DNA of 64,000 bases from Allosalinactinospora lopnorensis (lineage in GTDB: Bacteria; Actinomycetota; Actinomycetes; Streptosporangiales; Streptosporangiaceae). Shown one piece after another: positions 7,804 through 28,395 of the stretch. The position numbers and the translations under genes are program-made. The stretch spans positions 1-64,000 of the forward strand of contig NZ_LAJC01000026.1 of NCBI RefSeq assembly GCF_000981225.1, read 5' to 3'. Positions within the stretch are counted from its first letter, which is position 1. Every line of letters starts with the position of its first letter. A model generated the notes under the pieces. It was not told where the DNA came from and made no database searches. It saw nothing but the letters and a program-made list of their open reading frames with translations.

Positions 7804-8429
7804 TACGGCATTTTAAGGGTTACTCCTGAAAACCGTAAGAGGATGGACACCAGGGCTCGGCCAACGGTCAGGGCGGCGCGGCGGTGTCGTGTGCGGCCGC
7901 CGCGCACCAGGCGGGCTCGCCGTGGCGCTGCACCTGGCGGCGGTCGCCCTTTGTGCGGCTCCGGCGAGCACGCCGGAAGAGGCGTCCTTCTCACCCGCTG
8001 CCGGTCTCGCCGATCGCGCCACCGGGCCTGCCCGGCTCCTGCCCGAGGGGCGGAGCGGGAGGGTATGCCGCCGCCGTGGTGGGCATCGAGCGCGCCCGCT
8101 TTCGGGCCGTTCTCCGGCCCGGCTCAGCCGCCGGGCCGGAGAACAAGCCCTTCACCGAAAGCGACGCTGCGCTGCCCTGCACACCCTTACGGTGAGTTCC
8201 TCCCGGCCGCCCGATCCACTGGCGGTGAAGCCCAAAGCGGGCACCCCCGCAGGAGGACTCCCGCCCCCGGCTTTCCGCTGGGAAGCGGCCTTCCACCGCA
8301 GAGGACCTCCAGACCGTCTTACCCGCCTGCCCCACTCATCGCTATGTCGTCAGGGCTCCGAAGTGTTGGGGGCGACCACGACCACGCACTCCGGCCGGTC
8401 CGGTCCTTCGGCTCCGGGCACCTCGGCGT
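7804..8429. other. Gene-poor stretch after the NRPS-like gene
   Basis: About 630 bases with no recognisable gene. The open frames on both strands are Arg/Pro/Gly-rich and protein-unlike. The stretch holds one strong nested inverted repeat (listed separately). Confidence 0.45.
8097..8163 (-). terminator. Nested inverted repeat, probable terminator of the NRPS-like gene
   Basis: Inner perfect 14-bp arms (8109-8122 with 8131-8144, eight-base loop) lie inside outer perfect 9-bp arms (8097-8105 with 8155-8163). It lies about 270 bases past the stop of the NRPS-like gene. Confidence 0.5.
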
Positions 8430-11400
8430 TCAGCATGGTTCCGTCTCGACGCGGTCCACCTCCTCCGGCCGCGGCAGCGTACCGGCCTTCACACTGTGGT
8501 CCAGGTAGCGGTACACCAGTTCGCGGTCGATCCGCGGGCATCGGATACCGGTACCGGCGAGCCCGCGGTCCAGGTTCTCCGTGCGCACCGGTCCCAGACG
8601 GAGACCGGTCGCGCTGCCGGAGTGCAGGTCGAAGAACGCCAGGGTGGCCGCCGCCTCGTCGTCTGTGTCCCGCAGCCGGTCCAGCCAGGCCGGGACCGGC
8701 AACCGGAGCACCGGGTAACCGTAGTCGGCCACCCAGTCGAACACCTCGGTCAGCCGGACCTGCCGTACCGGCACGACGTTGTACACCCTCGGCTGAGGAG
8801 TCTCCGCCGGCGTAGTCGCCATGGCCAGCCGCACCACGGCGCGGGCCACGTAGTCGACGGGCGTCCAGGGCTCGGTCACGTCCAGCTCCGGCAGTACCCC
8901 GGCGGGCAGGCCCACGCGGAGTATCCGCCAGAGCAGATCGTTGGGGTTGGCAAGGCCGGTTCCGGGTGCGGCGACGATCCGGCCCGGCCGGTACACCGCC
9001 ACTGGGAGCCCGCGCTGCCCCGCCTGCTCGACCAGCTGCTCGGCGACCCATTTGCTCTGCTGGTAACCGTCCTGCAGGCCGGGGTGAGCGGCCACGAAGT
9101 CCTCCGGCACCTCGGGCAGCACCGTGTCCGGCGGGGCCACCGCGAGGGTGGAGACGTGATGCAGTGCGCTGGGGCGGCCGGCGGACGCCAGGCGCAGCAC
9201 CTCGCGCGTGCCGCCGACGTTGATCTGGCGCAGGCTCGTATAGCCGCGGACCACGCTGACCATGGCCGCGTTGTGGACCACCGCGTCGGCCTCGGCCGCG
9301 AACGCGGCGAACTGGTCGGCGTCGAGGCCCAGCCGGGGCTGGGCCAGGTCTGCCCGTACCGGAACCACCCGGCCGTCCAGCGCGGTCGAGGGCAGCGCCT
9401 GGTCGGCCAGGGCCCGGGTGATCCGCTCGGCGGCGTTGCCGGTGTCGCTCGCCCGCACTGGGCAGACGACCTGTGCGTCCGTCTGGCCCAGCAGTTCGGT
9501 GAGCAGGTGCGGCCCGAGGAAGCCGGTGGCGCCGGTGAGCACAACGGTCGCAGCGGCGGGAGCCGTCCGGGCGGGACTGCCAGGCGCCGGCGTTGGCGTG
9601 ATGTCGTCCGGCAGTTCGGTGTCGACCATGTACCCCTCGCCGGGCGCACCGGCCGGAGTCGCCGCGTCCTCAGGGGTCGACGCGCCGGCCGCGCCGGTCC
9701 CCCCTGCCGGGGTCGGCATGCCGCGCTCGGCGGTTGCGAGGGAGGCGGCCAGCTCGGCGACGGTCGAGTACCGGAACAGCATGGCGGCCGTAACCTCGAA
9801 ACCCAGCTCGTGGCCCAGCCGGGTTGCCACCTGGACACTCTGCAGCGACTGCCCGCCGAGTCCGAAGAAGTCGTCGTGTACGTCGTTCGGACGCACCCCG
9901 AGCACCTGCTCCCATACGTCGGCGACCAGCTCCTCCGTCCTGTCCCGCGGTGCCTGGCCGGACGCTGCCCGGCTCGCGGCCGTCCGCCCGGCCCGGGGCT
10001 CCGGGAGCGCGCCGTAGTCGATCTTGCCATGGCGGGTCAGCGGCAGCTGGTCGAGCACCACGAAGACGTCCGGGAGCAGATGCGCCGGCAGATCGCGGCA
10101 CAGCTGGCCGCGGAGGCCGCGGATAAACGCGTTCTCCCGCAGCGGGCGAAGCGGATCGTTGGCCACGACGGTGCCAGAGGGCGGTTCCTGCACGCAGGCC
10201 AGGCGTAGGTACGGTTCGGCGGAGTCATCGGCCGGTGTGAGCAGCAGGTGGAGCCGGTCGGAGCGGTGCGGCGACAGCAGTACTTCGGCGGTACAGGGAA
10301 AGTCGCCCCCGAGCGCCCACAGCTCCTCCGGGGCGATCCCCGCGCCGGTCCAGGTCGGCTCCGAACGCAGCCCGCCCAGCAGCGCCCCGCCGGTCCCGCC
10401 CGCGCGAAGTTCCGCGGCCAGGTCGCACAGCTGTGCGACCCGGGCGTTCGGAATGTCGCGAATGAGGAGTGGCCGGGTCAGCTGCCGGGCCCGGCGGTGC
10501 AGCTCCTCCAGGGAGAGTGAGCCCGGATCCCAGTCGAGCACCGCGAGATGGTGGCCGGCTTGGCCGGGTTCACCGATGGTGAGGACCGCGTCGAACCGGA
10601 AGCACGTCAGTTCGTTCTCCAGGCGCCCGCGCTTGGGGAGCAGCCGAACGGCAGACACCCCGGGGAGCTCCCGGGCCAGCCTCCTGACCGCGTCCGGGTG
10701 CACGACCAGCTCGGTCTCACCGCGCGCCCCTTGTTTGGCCGCGTTCCAGATCGCCGCCGGAGCCCGGTCGCCGCGGTCGCCGTACAGCTCCAGCGCGAGG
10801 TGGAACTCTTCCAGCAAGCCGAGGTGGCGGAGGTCTCCCAGGAAGACGTGGCCACCGGGCCGGGTGGCGCGGGCCGCATTCTCCACGGTCCGGCGCAGGT
10901 ACTCCAGGCTCGGGAAGTACTGGGCCACCGAGTTGAGCACGACCACGTCGAAGTACCCTTCGGGCAGCCCGGTGAAGTCGTCCGCCGCCTGCCGGAGGAG
11001 CCTGGCCCCAGAAGTTCCGCTCGCGGCGTCCAGCTGCCGCCGTAACTGGTCAAGCGCGTTCTCGGAGATGTCCAGACCCCAGTACTCGACGCCGTCCTCG
11101 ACCAGTGGCACGGCGAGCAGTCCGGACCCGCAGCCGAGTTCGAGCACCCGGCGCGGCCGCAGTGCGCGCAGGCGGTCGACCGTGGTCGTCACCCACTCGT
11201 CGAGATCCGCGGCCGGCATCGCCTCCCCGGTGAAACTGCTGTGCCAGCCGACCGTGGCGTCGCCGCGGTCGGCAGAGGCCCCGTACATCTGCTCGCTCAG
11301 TGCGGTCCAGTGCCGCAGCCGCTCGCCGGTGAGCTTGTCGGTCTCCTCGTGCGTATTCGCCGGCGGCTCGGAAGGGACCACGTAGGCGGCCAGGTAGCGG

Positions 11401-12755
11401 TCGGTCTCCGCACCGTAGGCGGTCACCGCCGCCGCGGTCACGGAGTCGTGTGCGAGCAGCGTGTGCTCGATCTCACCGGGCTCGATCCGGAAACCGCGGA
11501 CCTTCACCTGCCGGTCCACCCGGCCGAGGAACTCCAGCTCCCCGTCGGGGGTGCGGCGGACCAGGTCACCGGTACGGTACATGCGCGCGTCCGGTCCGGC
11601 GTCAAACGGGTCGGGCAGGAAGCGCGCGGCGGTCAGCTCCGGCCGGTCGAGGTAGCCGAGCGCCACCGTCGGCCCGGCCACGTACAGTTCGCCGGCGACT
11701 CCGGGAGCGACCGGTCGGCCGTCCGGGTCGAGGATGTAGGTGCTGAGCCCCTCGACCGCCCGGCCGATGGTGGGCTCGCCGTCACCGTGGCCGACCTCCG
11801 CGTACGTCGCCCACAGGGCCACCTCGGTAGGTCCGTACACGTTGTAGAAGCTCCGGCCGGCGCCCCAGGTGCGGACGAGACCGCGGTTGCACTGTTCCCC
11901 GCCGGTGATGATGATGCGCACGGACGGCAGCGGCACATCGGCCGGCAGCGACTGCAGCGCGGACGGGGTCATGGCGACGACCGACACCCCATGCTCGTTG
12001 ATCAGCTTGGTCAGGCCGGGACCGGGCAGCTCTCCCGGCTCCGGCAGACTGAGCGCGGCCCCGGCGGACAGCCCGAGTCCGATCTCGAACAACGAGGCGT
12101 CGAAGCTCATGGGGAGGAACTGCAGCACTGTATCGTCCGGGGTGAGGGCGAACACGTCGCGCATGCGCTGCGTCGCCAGCGCCAGCCCGCCATGGTGGTT
12201 CAGAACGCCCTTGGGCTTCCCTGTGGTGCCCGACGTGTACATCAGGTAGGCCGCGTCGCCGGGAGCCGGGCGGTGGAGGGCAACGTCCCGCGAATGCGCG
12301 GCGATGTTGTCCCGCTCCGCTTCCAGGTCGATAACCGGTGCCGTCGCCCCGGTCAGCACCGGCGCGGTCGCGGCGGTCGCGATGATCGTCCGGGGGCGGG
12401 CGTCGGCCAGTAGGAATTTGATCCGGTCCGGCGGGCTGGACGGATCCAGCGGCATGTACACCGCTCCCGCCTTCAAAACCGCCAGCAAGCTTATTATCAG
12501 GTCGAACGAGCGGGGTACGCAGACCCCGACCGCGTTCTCCGGGCCGACACCGTTCGCGGTCAGGTAATGCGCCAGCCGCTCGGATCGCGTGTCCAGCTCA
12601 CCGTAGGTCAGGGTCCGGTCGCCCTCCCTGAGCGCGACAGCGGTGGGACGCGCGGCGGTCAACCGGCGGAATGTGTCCGGGAAAGACGCGAGATCCGTGG
12701 CCTGACCAGGCCAGAATCTGTCCATCGCCGAAGAGCTCCACGTTGGCCTGTGCAT
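8430..12755 (-). CDS. Stand-alone NRPS-like enzyme: adenylation, embedded methyltransferase, thiolation, reductase (A-MT-T-R)
   Basis: A 1441-residue single-module enzyme predicted to activate one amino acid, N-methylate it, hold it on a phosphopantetheine arm and release it by NAD(P)H reduction as an aldehyde or alcohol. Adenylation core motifs are LMYTSGTTGKPKG (171-183), NVYGPTE (305-311), YRTGDL (393-398), GRVDRQVKVRGFRIEPGEIE (411-430) and RHGKIDY with Lys911. A methyltransferase with SAM loop VLELGCGSG (537-545) is inserted between adenylation motifs A8 and A10. The carrier Ser is S970 in LGGQSLQ. The reductase begins VLTGATGFLGPHLL (1072-1085), with catalytic Y1231 and K1235 in YQQSK. 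By eye the specificity residues are D-A-F-A-I-G-V-L-W-K, which I cannot assign. There is no condensation domain, thioesterase or MbtH nearby. The ATG at 12755 has a GAGGTGA site. Confidence 0.92.
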   Translation of the reverse strand: MHRPTWSSSAMDRFWPGQATDLASFPDTFRRLTAARPTAVALREGDRTLTYGELDTRSERLAHYLTANGVGPENAVGVCVPRSFDLIISLLAVLKAGAVYMPLDPSSPPDRIKFLLADARPRTIIATAATAPVLTGATAPVIDLEAERDNIAAHSRDVALHRPAPGDAAYLMYTSGTTGKPKGVLNHHGGLALATQRMRDVFALTPDDTVLQFLPMSFDASLFEIGLGLSAGAALSLPEPGELPGPGLTKLINEHGVSVVAMTPSALQSLPADVPLPSVRIIITGGEQCNRGLVRTWGAGRSFYNVYGPTEVALWATYAEVGHGDGEPTIGRAVEGLSTYILDPDGRPVAPGVAGELYVAGPTVALGYLDRPELTAARFLPDPFDAGPDARMYRTGDLVRRTPDGELEFLGRVDRQVKVRGFRIEPGEIEHTLLAHDSVTAAAVTAYGAETDRYLAAYVVPSEPPANTHEETDKLTGERLRHWTALSEQMYGASADRGDATVGWHSSFTGEAMPAADLDEWVTTTVDRLRALRPRRVLELGCGSGLLAVPLVEDGVEYWGLDISENALDQLRRQLDAASGTSGARLLRQAADDFTGLPEGYFDVVVLNSVAQYFPSLEYLRRTVENAARATRPGGHVFLGDLRHLGLLEEFHLALELYGDRGDRAPAAIWNAAKQGARGETELVVHPDAVRRLARELPGVSAVRLLPKRGRLENELTCFRFDAVLTIGEPGQAGHHLAVLDWDPGSLSLEELHRRARQLTRPLLIRDIPNARVAQLCDLAAELRAGGTGGALLGGLRSEPTWTGAGIAPEELWALGGDFPCTAEVLLSPHRSDRLHLLLTPADDSAEPYLRLACVQEPPSGTVVANDPLRPLRENAFIRGLRGQLCRDLPAHLLPDVFVVLDQLPLTRHGKIDYGALPEPRAGRTAASRAASGQAPRDRTEELVADVWEQVLGVRPNDVHDDFFGLGGQSLQSVQVATRLGHELGFEVTAAMLFRYSTVAELAASLATAERGMPTPAGGTGAAGASTPEDAATPAGAPGEGYMVDTELPDDITPTPAPGSPARTAPAAATVVLTGATGFLGPHLLTELLGQTDAQVVCPVRASDTGNAAERITRALADQALPSTALDGRVVPVRADLAQPRLGLDADQFAAFAAEADAVVHNAAMVSVVRGYTSLRQINVGGTREVLRLASAGRPSALHHVSTLAVAPPDTVLPEVPEDFVAAHPGLQDGYQQSKWVAEQLVEQAGQRGLPVAVYRPGRIVAAPGTGLANPNDLLWRILRVGLPAGVLPELDVTEPWTPVDYVARAVVRLAMATTPAETPQPRVYNVVPVRQVRLTEVFDWVADYGYPVLRLPVPAWLDRLRDTDDEAAATLAFFDLHSGSATGLRLGPVRTENLDRGLAGTGIRCPRIDRELVYRYLDHSVKAGTLPRPEEVDRVETEPC

Positions 12756-14901
12756 ATTTCACCTCGTGAGTTAGGGAATAGGGGGAGGGGAGTTCAGGCT
12801 GCTCCGCTGCACCACGCCCTCCGGAAACCGGACCTCTCACCTGCGACATGCGAGGTAGCCACGCGATAAACCACGGCGTTGGTACCGGGACGTATGCGCA
12901 GCCGGACCGGCGATTACGGCTACTCCCGTGCGTCGGGACTCAGGTGCCCTGTTCGGTTTTCCGAGGGAAACCGGAAAGCTCAGGTCGGGGGCCGAACCGG
13001 CCCAACTCATAGGCCGAGCGGAACCCGCCGTGAGCGGTCACGCCGGTGAAGGTAGGCGGAAAGGCGCCAGGTTTCCGCAGCTCGACGACGTGCTTGTGCT
13101 CGTTCCGGTTACCGAAAACCCATCCATGGATCCTTCCGCGGTGTCGGAGAGCACCCAGGCTGCCGGGACAGCGAGCGCTCGACACAGCCCTGTGGAGGTC
13201 GACCTATGGTGCCCCCAATCGGGTAGCCCGAGTGGGCCCGCCAGCGCTGCCGGGGCTTGACACCCCCGTGCCCTGGGAGAAGCGCCCTCCGCCGGACCGT
13301 TGGACCGGACCGCCCCTGGAAGAGCGCAGCGCCCCGACTCCTCAGGCGTCCGCCGAAGCCGGACAGGAGCGGCGCGGGGGCTGCCAGCCTGGGCGCGGGC
13401 TAGCCGCATATCTCGGCGAGCGGCGAGGGCGGCGAGTGGGGCCGGCGAGGAACGCGGCGGGGCACACCGTGAGTACGGCGGGCGGGTACTTCGCGGCCCG
13501 CGCACGGTGCGGGACTTCCCGATGGCTCCTAGGCGGCCGGGAGATGTCCTCAGCCGGAGGATGCTGGCGCAGCCGGTCGCGTCGGCCGTACCGCGGGTAC
13601 CAGGCGCGGACGGTGTCGCGCTGCGCAGGGGCATCCCCTCATCGGACCGACGCGCGCCGCCCCGCCCCTCCTCCCCTCCCCAAGAGTTGTGCCAGCGGGT
13701 ACTATCGGCGTCCTTTTAGACCAGGACCATCAACAGCGTCCGGAAATCTAAACTGCATCCAGTAGTGATGTGTCGTGTCGGCGCAGGGGGCGACACACGG
13801 GCGAGGAGCGCGGCGGCGAGTTCTCCCCTATCACGCGTTTCTACTGGTGTTGGGTATAGGCGAGTTTCCTCATCATGGCAGTTGAGATTTCCGTAGACTC
13901 GTTCTATGCTTCACGTCGCCGAGGCCTTCTACTTGAATCATGCGATATCCGAAATACGCTCTATAAAAGTATGAGGGTCGTACGGGGGGCGCTCGGTGAT
14001 CTGATCCTGGCCGGGGCCGCTGTTCAGGACTCCTCCGCGTCGGCGTCGAGGTGCTCTGCGGAGACGGCGTCACGACCACGGCGCCTGAGATAGTGAAGAG
14101 GTAGCTCCCAGATGCAGCCATTCGTGGGACATGACCATGAACTGCTGACATTCCTCACCGGCCTGCGAGAGGCGTGGAGGGGCTCATCTTGGCTATTCCC
14201 GGCCACGGTGTCCCATGCGGCGGCGAAACCCCTAACACGCAGCGCCGAAACGTTCGGTACGAGGCTGCCGACCCGCACCGCGCGAGGGCGGCGCACATGC
14301 CTCGTCCAAACAGGGCGGCGGATGTCGCCACCGGGAACCGTCGACGAGCCCCGAGAGCCGGAGGCGCTATCAGTCGCGGTCGACACCGCCCCGATACGGG
14401 GAGCTCCCCTCACCCCGGTTTCCGCCGAACAGATGGGCCGCCCTGATCGCGTCTGATCTCGAACTCTTTGTGCGCTCGTCGCGCACACCAGGAGAGGGCT
14501 CGGCCGCCTATCCCGGCGGAAAGGCGCGTCGCGGAGTTCGCCCCGGCATCGGCCCACGGACAGAACGCCAAAGAGCCTGGTGAGCACGTACTGTACTGTC
14601 GCCCCTCGCCTGTCCGGGGGTCGCCGCGGTCCCGGCGCCGGGCTGCTGGAAGTTGCTCGTCCTTACCTGGGAAGGCACGCCCGGACCCCACTATTGCCTC
14701 CGTCGCTCACGCTCTGTTTGCGGTCACGACCTCTACCGCCAGAAGGCTCGTGACGACCACCAGGCCCGAGATGCAAAGAGTTCCGGTATCTCCGTGGTGC
14801 CATCGCACGGAGTCCGTAACCAAGATAGTCATGGCGAGAAAAGCTGACATCGCGGAAGGGGCGCCTTTCATCGAGACAGCGATAAGGCAGGAAGGCTGCA
14901 C
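12756..14901. other. 2.1-kb stretch without recognisable genes
   Basis: Between the NRPS-like gene and the LuxR regulator. Frames up to about 240 codons exist on both strands, but all are dominated by Arg, Pro, Gly and Ser with no hydrophobic core, family motif or ribosome-binding site. A GC drop at about 13,700-13,990 and 14,700-14,900 suggests regulatory or decayed DNA. One short minus-strand frame (14707-14901) has a hydrophobic stretch but weak start signals. I see no transposase, tRNA or att-like repeat here. Confidence 0.4.
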
Positions 14902-19354: not shown

Positions 19355-19603
19355 ATGACTGTGGAAGTCAACATCCACGAAGCCAAGACGCACCTGTCCC
19401 GGCTGCTGGAGCAGGTCGCCGCCGGTGAGCAGGTCGTCATCTCCAAGGCCGGCCGACCTGTCGCCGACCTGGTGCCGCACCGCTCGACTCCTGTGGTGTT
19501 CGGCGGCCTCAGGGGCGAGCTTTCCTACGACGACGCCGCGTTCGACGAACTCGACCCCGACATCCAGCAGATGTTCTACGGCGACGCCGATGCTGCTTCT
19601 TGA
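19355..19603 (+). CDS. Phd/YefM-type antitoxin
   Basis: An 82-residue antitoxin. The N-terminal Phd/YefM fold is clear: MTVEVNIHEAKTHLSRLLEQVAAGEQVVISKAGRPVADLVP, where the N-terminal dimerisation and DNA-binding module normally sits. The acidic C-terminal tail (YDDAAFDELDPDIQQMFYGD) is the expected disordered toxin-wrapping segment. It overlaps the PIN toxin gene by 14 bases. The operator-like repeat just upstream fits autoregulation. Confidence 0.9.
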   Translation: MTVEVNIHEAKTHLSRLLEQVAAGEQVVISKAGRPVADLVPHRSTPVVFGGLRGELSYDDAAFDELDPDIQQMFYGDADAAS

Positions 19604-19973
19604 CAGCCATGTCGCCCTCTGGGTCATGGATGACAACCCGCGTCTTGGCCGGCAGGCGCGCACCCGGATCGGCGCCGCCGACCGGGTGCACGTCTCCGCG
19701 GCTACCGTGTGGGAACTCACGATCAAGGCGATGCTCGGCAGGCTCGTGGTTCCAGACCGGCTCAGCGAACGCATCGAACAGCAAGGGCTCACGTTGTTGA
19801 GCATCGCCGCCCAGGACACCGAGGGCATCCGCGGCTACCCGGAACTCGTGCGGCACGACCCATTCGACCGGCTTATCGTCGCCCAGGCCGAACGCGCCGG
19901 GATGCAGATGCTGACCGCCGATACCGTGTTGCTCGACCTCAAGCGCCCGTTCATCCTCGACGCCCGGGAGTAA
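19590..19973 (+). CDS. PIN-domain toxin (VapC-like ribonuclease)
   Basis: A 127-residue PIN ribonuclease partner of the preceding antitoxin; such toxins cut RNA, often tRNA, using Mg2+. The acidic residues are present: Asp in LLLDSHVALW (residue 5), Glu in VWELTIK (about 50) and Asp in HDPFDRLIVAQA (about 92-95), plus a C-terminal TADTVLLDL. I start it at the ATG at 19590 inside the antitoxin gene, because LLLDSHVALWV is the conserved family N-terminus. Confidence 0.9.
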   Translation: MLLLDSHVALWVMDDNPRLGRQARTRIGAADRVHVSAATVWELTIKAMLGRLVVPDRLSERIEQQGLTLLSIAAQDTEGIRGYPELVRHDPFDRLIVAQAERAGMQMLTADTVLLDLKRPFILDARE

Positions 19974-26480: not shown

Positions 26481-28375
<1,895 letters not shown>

Positions 28376-28395
28376 AAACCGACCGCCCACCGGGC

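Follow-up and report, generated by a model that had tools for sequence, protein, structure and literature searches.

Domain organization of the synthetase

The window analysed here, a 64,000-nucleotide stretch of Allosalinactinospora lopnorensis DNA, contains a reverse-strand gene for a nonribosomal peptide synthetase (NRPS) of a single module, in which an adenylation (A) domain interrupted by a methyltransferase (MT) is followed by a carrier (T) domain and a terminal thioester reductase (R). The gene and its parts, with the evidence for each in brackets, are as follows.

8430..12755 (-), single-module A-MT-T-R NRPS of 1441 amino acids (open reading frame, Pfam)
12759..12765 (-), likely ribosome-binding site GAGGTGA, 5' of the ATG start (sequence)
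11304..12686 (-), A domain core a1-a8, residues 24-484, code DAFAIGVLW (Pfam, alignment)
10521..11303 (-), inserted MT, best read as a backbone N-methyltransferase, residues 485-745, with VLELGCGSG and NSVAQYFP (Pfam, structure match, alignment)
10116..10520 (-), segment following the MT, residues 746-880 (without significant match among the MxcG-type proteins in the set)
9996..10115 (-), C-terminal part of the A domain, a9 and a10, residues 881-920 (nearest relative an A-MT module, 51%)
9948..10004 (-), A-T linker, residues 918-936, putative junction between A-MT-like and MxcG-type T-R similarity (segment-wise matches)
9720..9950 (-), T domain with S970 (62% to Sorangium MxcG-type T)
8463..9569 (-), terminal thioester reductase, residues 1063-1431, with GxxGxxG, S1202/T1203, Y1231 and K1235 (MxcG clade)

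Pfam matches within the protein span residues 33-369 (A), 538-637 (MT), 943-1004 (PP-binding) and 1073-1307 (NAD_binding_4), and the E-values of the A and R profile matches (3e-83 and 2e-63) exclude chance similarity; no condensation (C) or thioesterase (TE) domain was detected in the protein by Pfam. The first-pass annotation, which had been made from the nucleotide sequence alone, had described an A domain interrupted between A8 and A10, a carrier serine at S970, an intact reductase YxxxK and the lack of C and TE domains. All of these features were recovered, the insertion site being slightly narrower than claimed, between a8 (residues 411-430) and a9 (889-896), and the serine being placed at S970 by alignment. 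Loss of SAM-binding or reductase residues was also checked, and VLELGCGSG in the MT and TGATGFLG (1074-1081), S1202/T1203, Y1231 and K1235 in the R domain are all retained. Near-invariant columns of the relatives are conserved at 37 of 38 positions in the A domain, 31 of 32 in the R domain and 36 of 41 in the MT, where the deviating residues are L518, V552, T623, V690 and F721. Third-position G+C is 0.87-0.89 in every part of the 4.3 kb open frame. The A-MT-T-R enzyme is real and apparently intact.

Methyltransferase type and adenylation specificity

The only close solved homologue of the MT is TioS AMA4 (5wmm; E 2e-44, compared with 3e-8 for the second-best structure), with an alignment spanning query residues 12-919. 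The motif NSVAQYFP is shared, bar one variable position, with the N-methylating modules in the alignment. This motif and the match to TioS across the whole interrupted unit favour backbone N-methylation, so that the N-type is the best reading of the insert, within a comparison set made up of N-type A-MT modules. Like the query, the TioS A4-M-A4 unit of thiocoraline biosynthesis carries a backbone N-MT between a8 and a9 and can be aligned over its whole length, but it belongs to a multimodular NRPS, whereas the query module stands alone, ends in an R domain and comes from a genome assembly without an MbtH match. The MT domains of interrupted A domains are reviewed as acting on the T-bound residue (PMC11355689).

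Alignment to 88 other A domains gave DAFAIGVLW for the nine code positions of the query, bearing out the code that had earlier been read by eye (DAFAIGVLW followed by K). The accompanying statement that no standard code is matched also stands within the codes compared here: none of the 88 shares the query code, the highest overlap is four of nine positions, and this counts against the explanation preferred below. One relative with such an overlap has DILQLGVIW, sharing G301 and W331 among the four, which we take to resemble a glycine code. Lysine, as in the MxcG type, was considered as a substrate and is unsupported, the MxcG code being DAEDIGTVV.

Probable chimeric origin

The best-scoring NCBIfam model is that of MxcG, over residues 880-1430, with 947 bits against a curated cut-off of 2300 for the MxcG equivalog NF038078 and with the C domain missing. 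Compared with myxobacterial and Streptoalloteichus C-A-T-R proteins, the T-R part of the query matches at 54% over about 550 residues; for the A domain the value is only about 40%. Segment by segment, the nearest relatives of the A core (43%), the MT (42%) and a9-a10 (51%) are actinobacterial NRPS modules, including A-MT units, while those of the T (62%) and R (63%) domains are Sorangium MxcG-type proteins, the change falling between residues 881-935 and 936 onward. In a tree of 68 R-domain rows the query lies inside the MxcG-type reductase clade (support 100/99), whereas in a quick tree of A domains it lies outside the MxcG clade (SH-aLRT 100), and the MxcG-type A-domain code is absent from it.

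From the similarity of these segments we infer a chimeric protein, with an A-MT half that is actinobacterial-like (about 42%) and a T-R half of MxcG type, probably produced when an actinobacterial A-MT module was fused, in the A-T linker, to the terminal T and R domains of a C-A-T-R synthetase of the MxcG type. Because both parents are distant, the fusion may be old. A chimeric origin was absent from the first-pass annotation and is added by the present analysis of the T, R and A segments. MxcG, of myxochelin biosynthesis, and the related C-A-T-R synthetases resemble the query in the T and R domains (at most 63% identity, same R clade), but they differ from it in possessing a C domain, in their A domain (which has the code DAEDIGTVV in the myxobacterial members) and in lacking an MT. 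One of these related synthetases is encoded in a Streptomyces plasmid cluster resembling isonitrile lipopeptide clusters. Such an apparent natural domain swap between distant synthetases at the A-T linker is useful for NRPS engineering.

Rarity and related architectures

Further genomes were searched with the R domain, 99 from the same family, 97 from the class and 101 from a second family, probably Streptomycetaceae. The proteins retrieved had C-A-T-R, A-T-R, A-MT-T-C-A-T-R and C-A-MT-T-R architectures, and none was an A-MT-T-R protein lacking a C domain. An MT was absent from all MxcG-type proteins and all C-less A-T-R proteins retrieved, and from all 46 loci in a scan of genome contigs. No single A-MT-T-R module was found in the plasmid collection, where the sole record spanning at least 80% of the query is a C-A-MT-T-R protein of Bradyrhizobium, and matches in the phage collection were to the A domain only. 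Because the sampled taxa are partial and the searches cover the strongest matches retrieved, these results establish rarity, not uniqueness. No orthologue that would show this combination to be maintained in evolution was found among the sampled genomes, which also counts against the preferred explanation. The literature searched contains no description of an A-MT-T-R enzyme or of a one-protein pathway of this kind, although the parts, and the chemistry of each domain, are already known; it is their joining without a C domain that was not found elsewhere among the genomes sampled.

Three groups of synthetases approach this arrangement. The minimal A-T-R enzymes (ATRed of Xenorhabdus and the PvfC type) likewise lack C and TE domains, activate one residue and release it reductively, features that the query matches in its missing C and TE domains and its terminal R domain with GxxGxxG and Y-K; unlike the query they have no MT, and their primary amino aldehyde goes on to a pyrazine. 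C-A-MT-T-R terminal modules (e.g. in genomes G004 and G248 and on Bradyrhizobium pLCT2) share the A-MT-T-R order, but are preceded by a C domain and further modules, and the R domains of those included in the tree belong to a different clade. The A-MT-T-C-A-T-R synthetases of the same family (loci L087, L094 and L097) share the starting A-MT-T part, but have a second module ahead of the R domain. In several genera of this family (L087, L094, L097 and L085) there is a related synthetase with this A-MT-T-C-A-T-R architecture, about 2900 amino acids long.

Proposed reaction and product

The preferred explanation, to which we assign a probability of roughly 0.6, is that the protein is a free-standing single-module reductive NRPS, formed by fusion in the A-T linker, which loads an amino acid, N-methylates it and reduces it to the aldehyde and probably to the alcohol. 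The A domain would adenylate one amino acid and load it onto S970, the inserted MT would transfer a methyl group from SAM to the α-nitrogen of the T-bound residue, and the MxcG-type R domain would use NAD(P)H to convert the thioester into an N-methyl amino aldehyde, which it would probably carry further to the N-methyl amino alcohol. This scheme draws on the domain order, the retained motifs, the N-type of the MT and the clade of the R domain, all read from the sequence; the motifs and domain order give good support to N-methylation and reductive release by a single C-less module, as had been proposed earlier. Catalytic activity, the four-electron outcome and independence from MbtH are predicted. 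We hold more tentatively, at somewhat less than even odds, that this A-T linker recombinant is a stand-alone, MbtH-independent enzyme which makes an N-methyl amino alcohol or aldehyde by itself. If true, it would provide a single-enzyme route to such compounds.

The aldehyde had earlier been proposed as the end product. A secondary, N-methylated amine would have to lose its methyl group to form a neutral aromatic pyrazine, so that N-methylation would block the ordinary aromatic pyrazine route. The pyrazine-type dimerization suggested at the time suits instead primary amino aldehydes, such as those from which pyrazines form after release by the stand-alone A-T-R enzyme ATRed (PMC7586950). ATRed nevertheless provides a precedent for an R domain that stops at the aldehyde, which could here self-react to dimeric iminium, enamine or dihydropyrazine-like species, or feed another enzyme. 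In the MxcG system the aldehyde is released and, if it is not first captured by a transaminase, reduced by MxcG itself to the alcohol (PMC8400222), and myxochelin is listed with myxalamid and lyngbyatoxin among the products of four-electron R domains (PMC2835699). Since the query R domain lies in the MxcG clade, the amino alcohol is favoured, and the free aldehyde is not the best guess; an aldehyde end point is possible but unlikely. The sequence does not distinguish the two with certainty, and by analogy with MxcG the aldehyde might be diverted by a partner. We regard the N-methyl amino alcohol as at least as likely a product as the free aldehyde.

Genomic context

The synthetase gene has unrelated or general genes on either side: upstream, those for a regulator of LuxR type and an ABC transporter resembling DrrAB; downstream, in the same orientation as the synthetase, those for a GNAT acetyltransferase and a CGNR regulator. 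The likeliest open reading frames of the window include no gene for MbtH, a P450 or a second NRPS, in agreement with the first reading of the locus, and no MbtH family match was found assembly-wide at E 1e-3; with an assembly of 220 contigs that is 96% complete, the genome is likely, though not certain, to lack MbtH. About 2.1 kb upstream of the gene (12756-14901) and about 0.6 kb downstream have little coding signal and are devoid of Pfam matches; such an upstream stretch is unusual for an actinobacterium. No dedicated pathway gene is evident nearby, which, together with these poorly coding flanks, counts against the preferred explanation; a search of the surroundings for RNA elements and repeats gave nothing notable.

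A decayed C domain upstream was considered and rejected, because the genome's only C-domain matches, in a search at E 1e-3 that read through stop codons, lie on another contig (C2). The sole condensation-domain protein is encoded there, in a separate, unrelated cluster (L061, 8396-18026) comprising A-T, C-T-C, ketosynthase and ACP-reductase genes together with 3-hydroxyacyl-CoA- and acyl-CoA-dehydrogenase-like genes, possibly a reductively released hybrid pathway. The C-T-C protein, and the N-terminus of the query (MDRFWPGQATDL), which resembles a C-A linker as though cut from a longer NRPS, could suggest that the module acts in trans, donating an N-methyl aminoacyl unit to a separate assembly line or accepting one from it. 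This is improbable, as the cluster on C2, a different contig, already includes A-T and ACP-R proteins of its own, and an R domain directly after the T domain would release the bound residue. The view that the free-standing enzyme is instead an unexpressed or inactive recombination product, consistent with the single copy found, the unusual junction and the poorly coding flanks, is highly improbable given the long open frame with its high third-position G+C, the plausible ribosome-binding site and the retained catalytic residues.

A 28-codon open reading frame on the reverse strand (8350-8436; MLNAEVPGAEGPDRPECVVVVAPNTSEP) starts within the sequence ATGCTGA, where it overlaps the NRPS stop codon; it may encode a small coupled peptide, represent the remnant of a gene or have arisen by chance. 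Elsewhere in the window, a small open reading frame overlaps a PIN-domain gene (19361-19973, +), likely forming a VapBC-type toxin-antitoxin pair, and a Methyltransf_24 open reading frame adjoins a class I/II aminotransferase gene (26481-28390, -).
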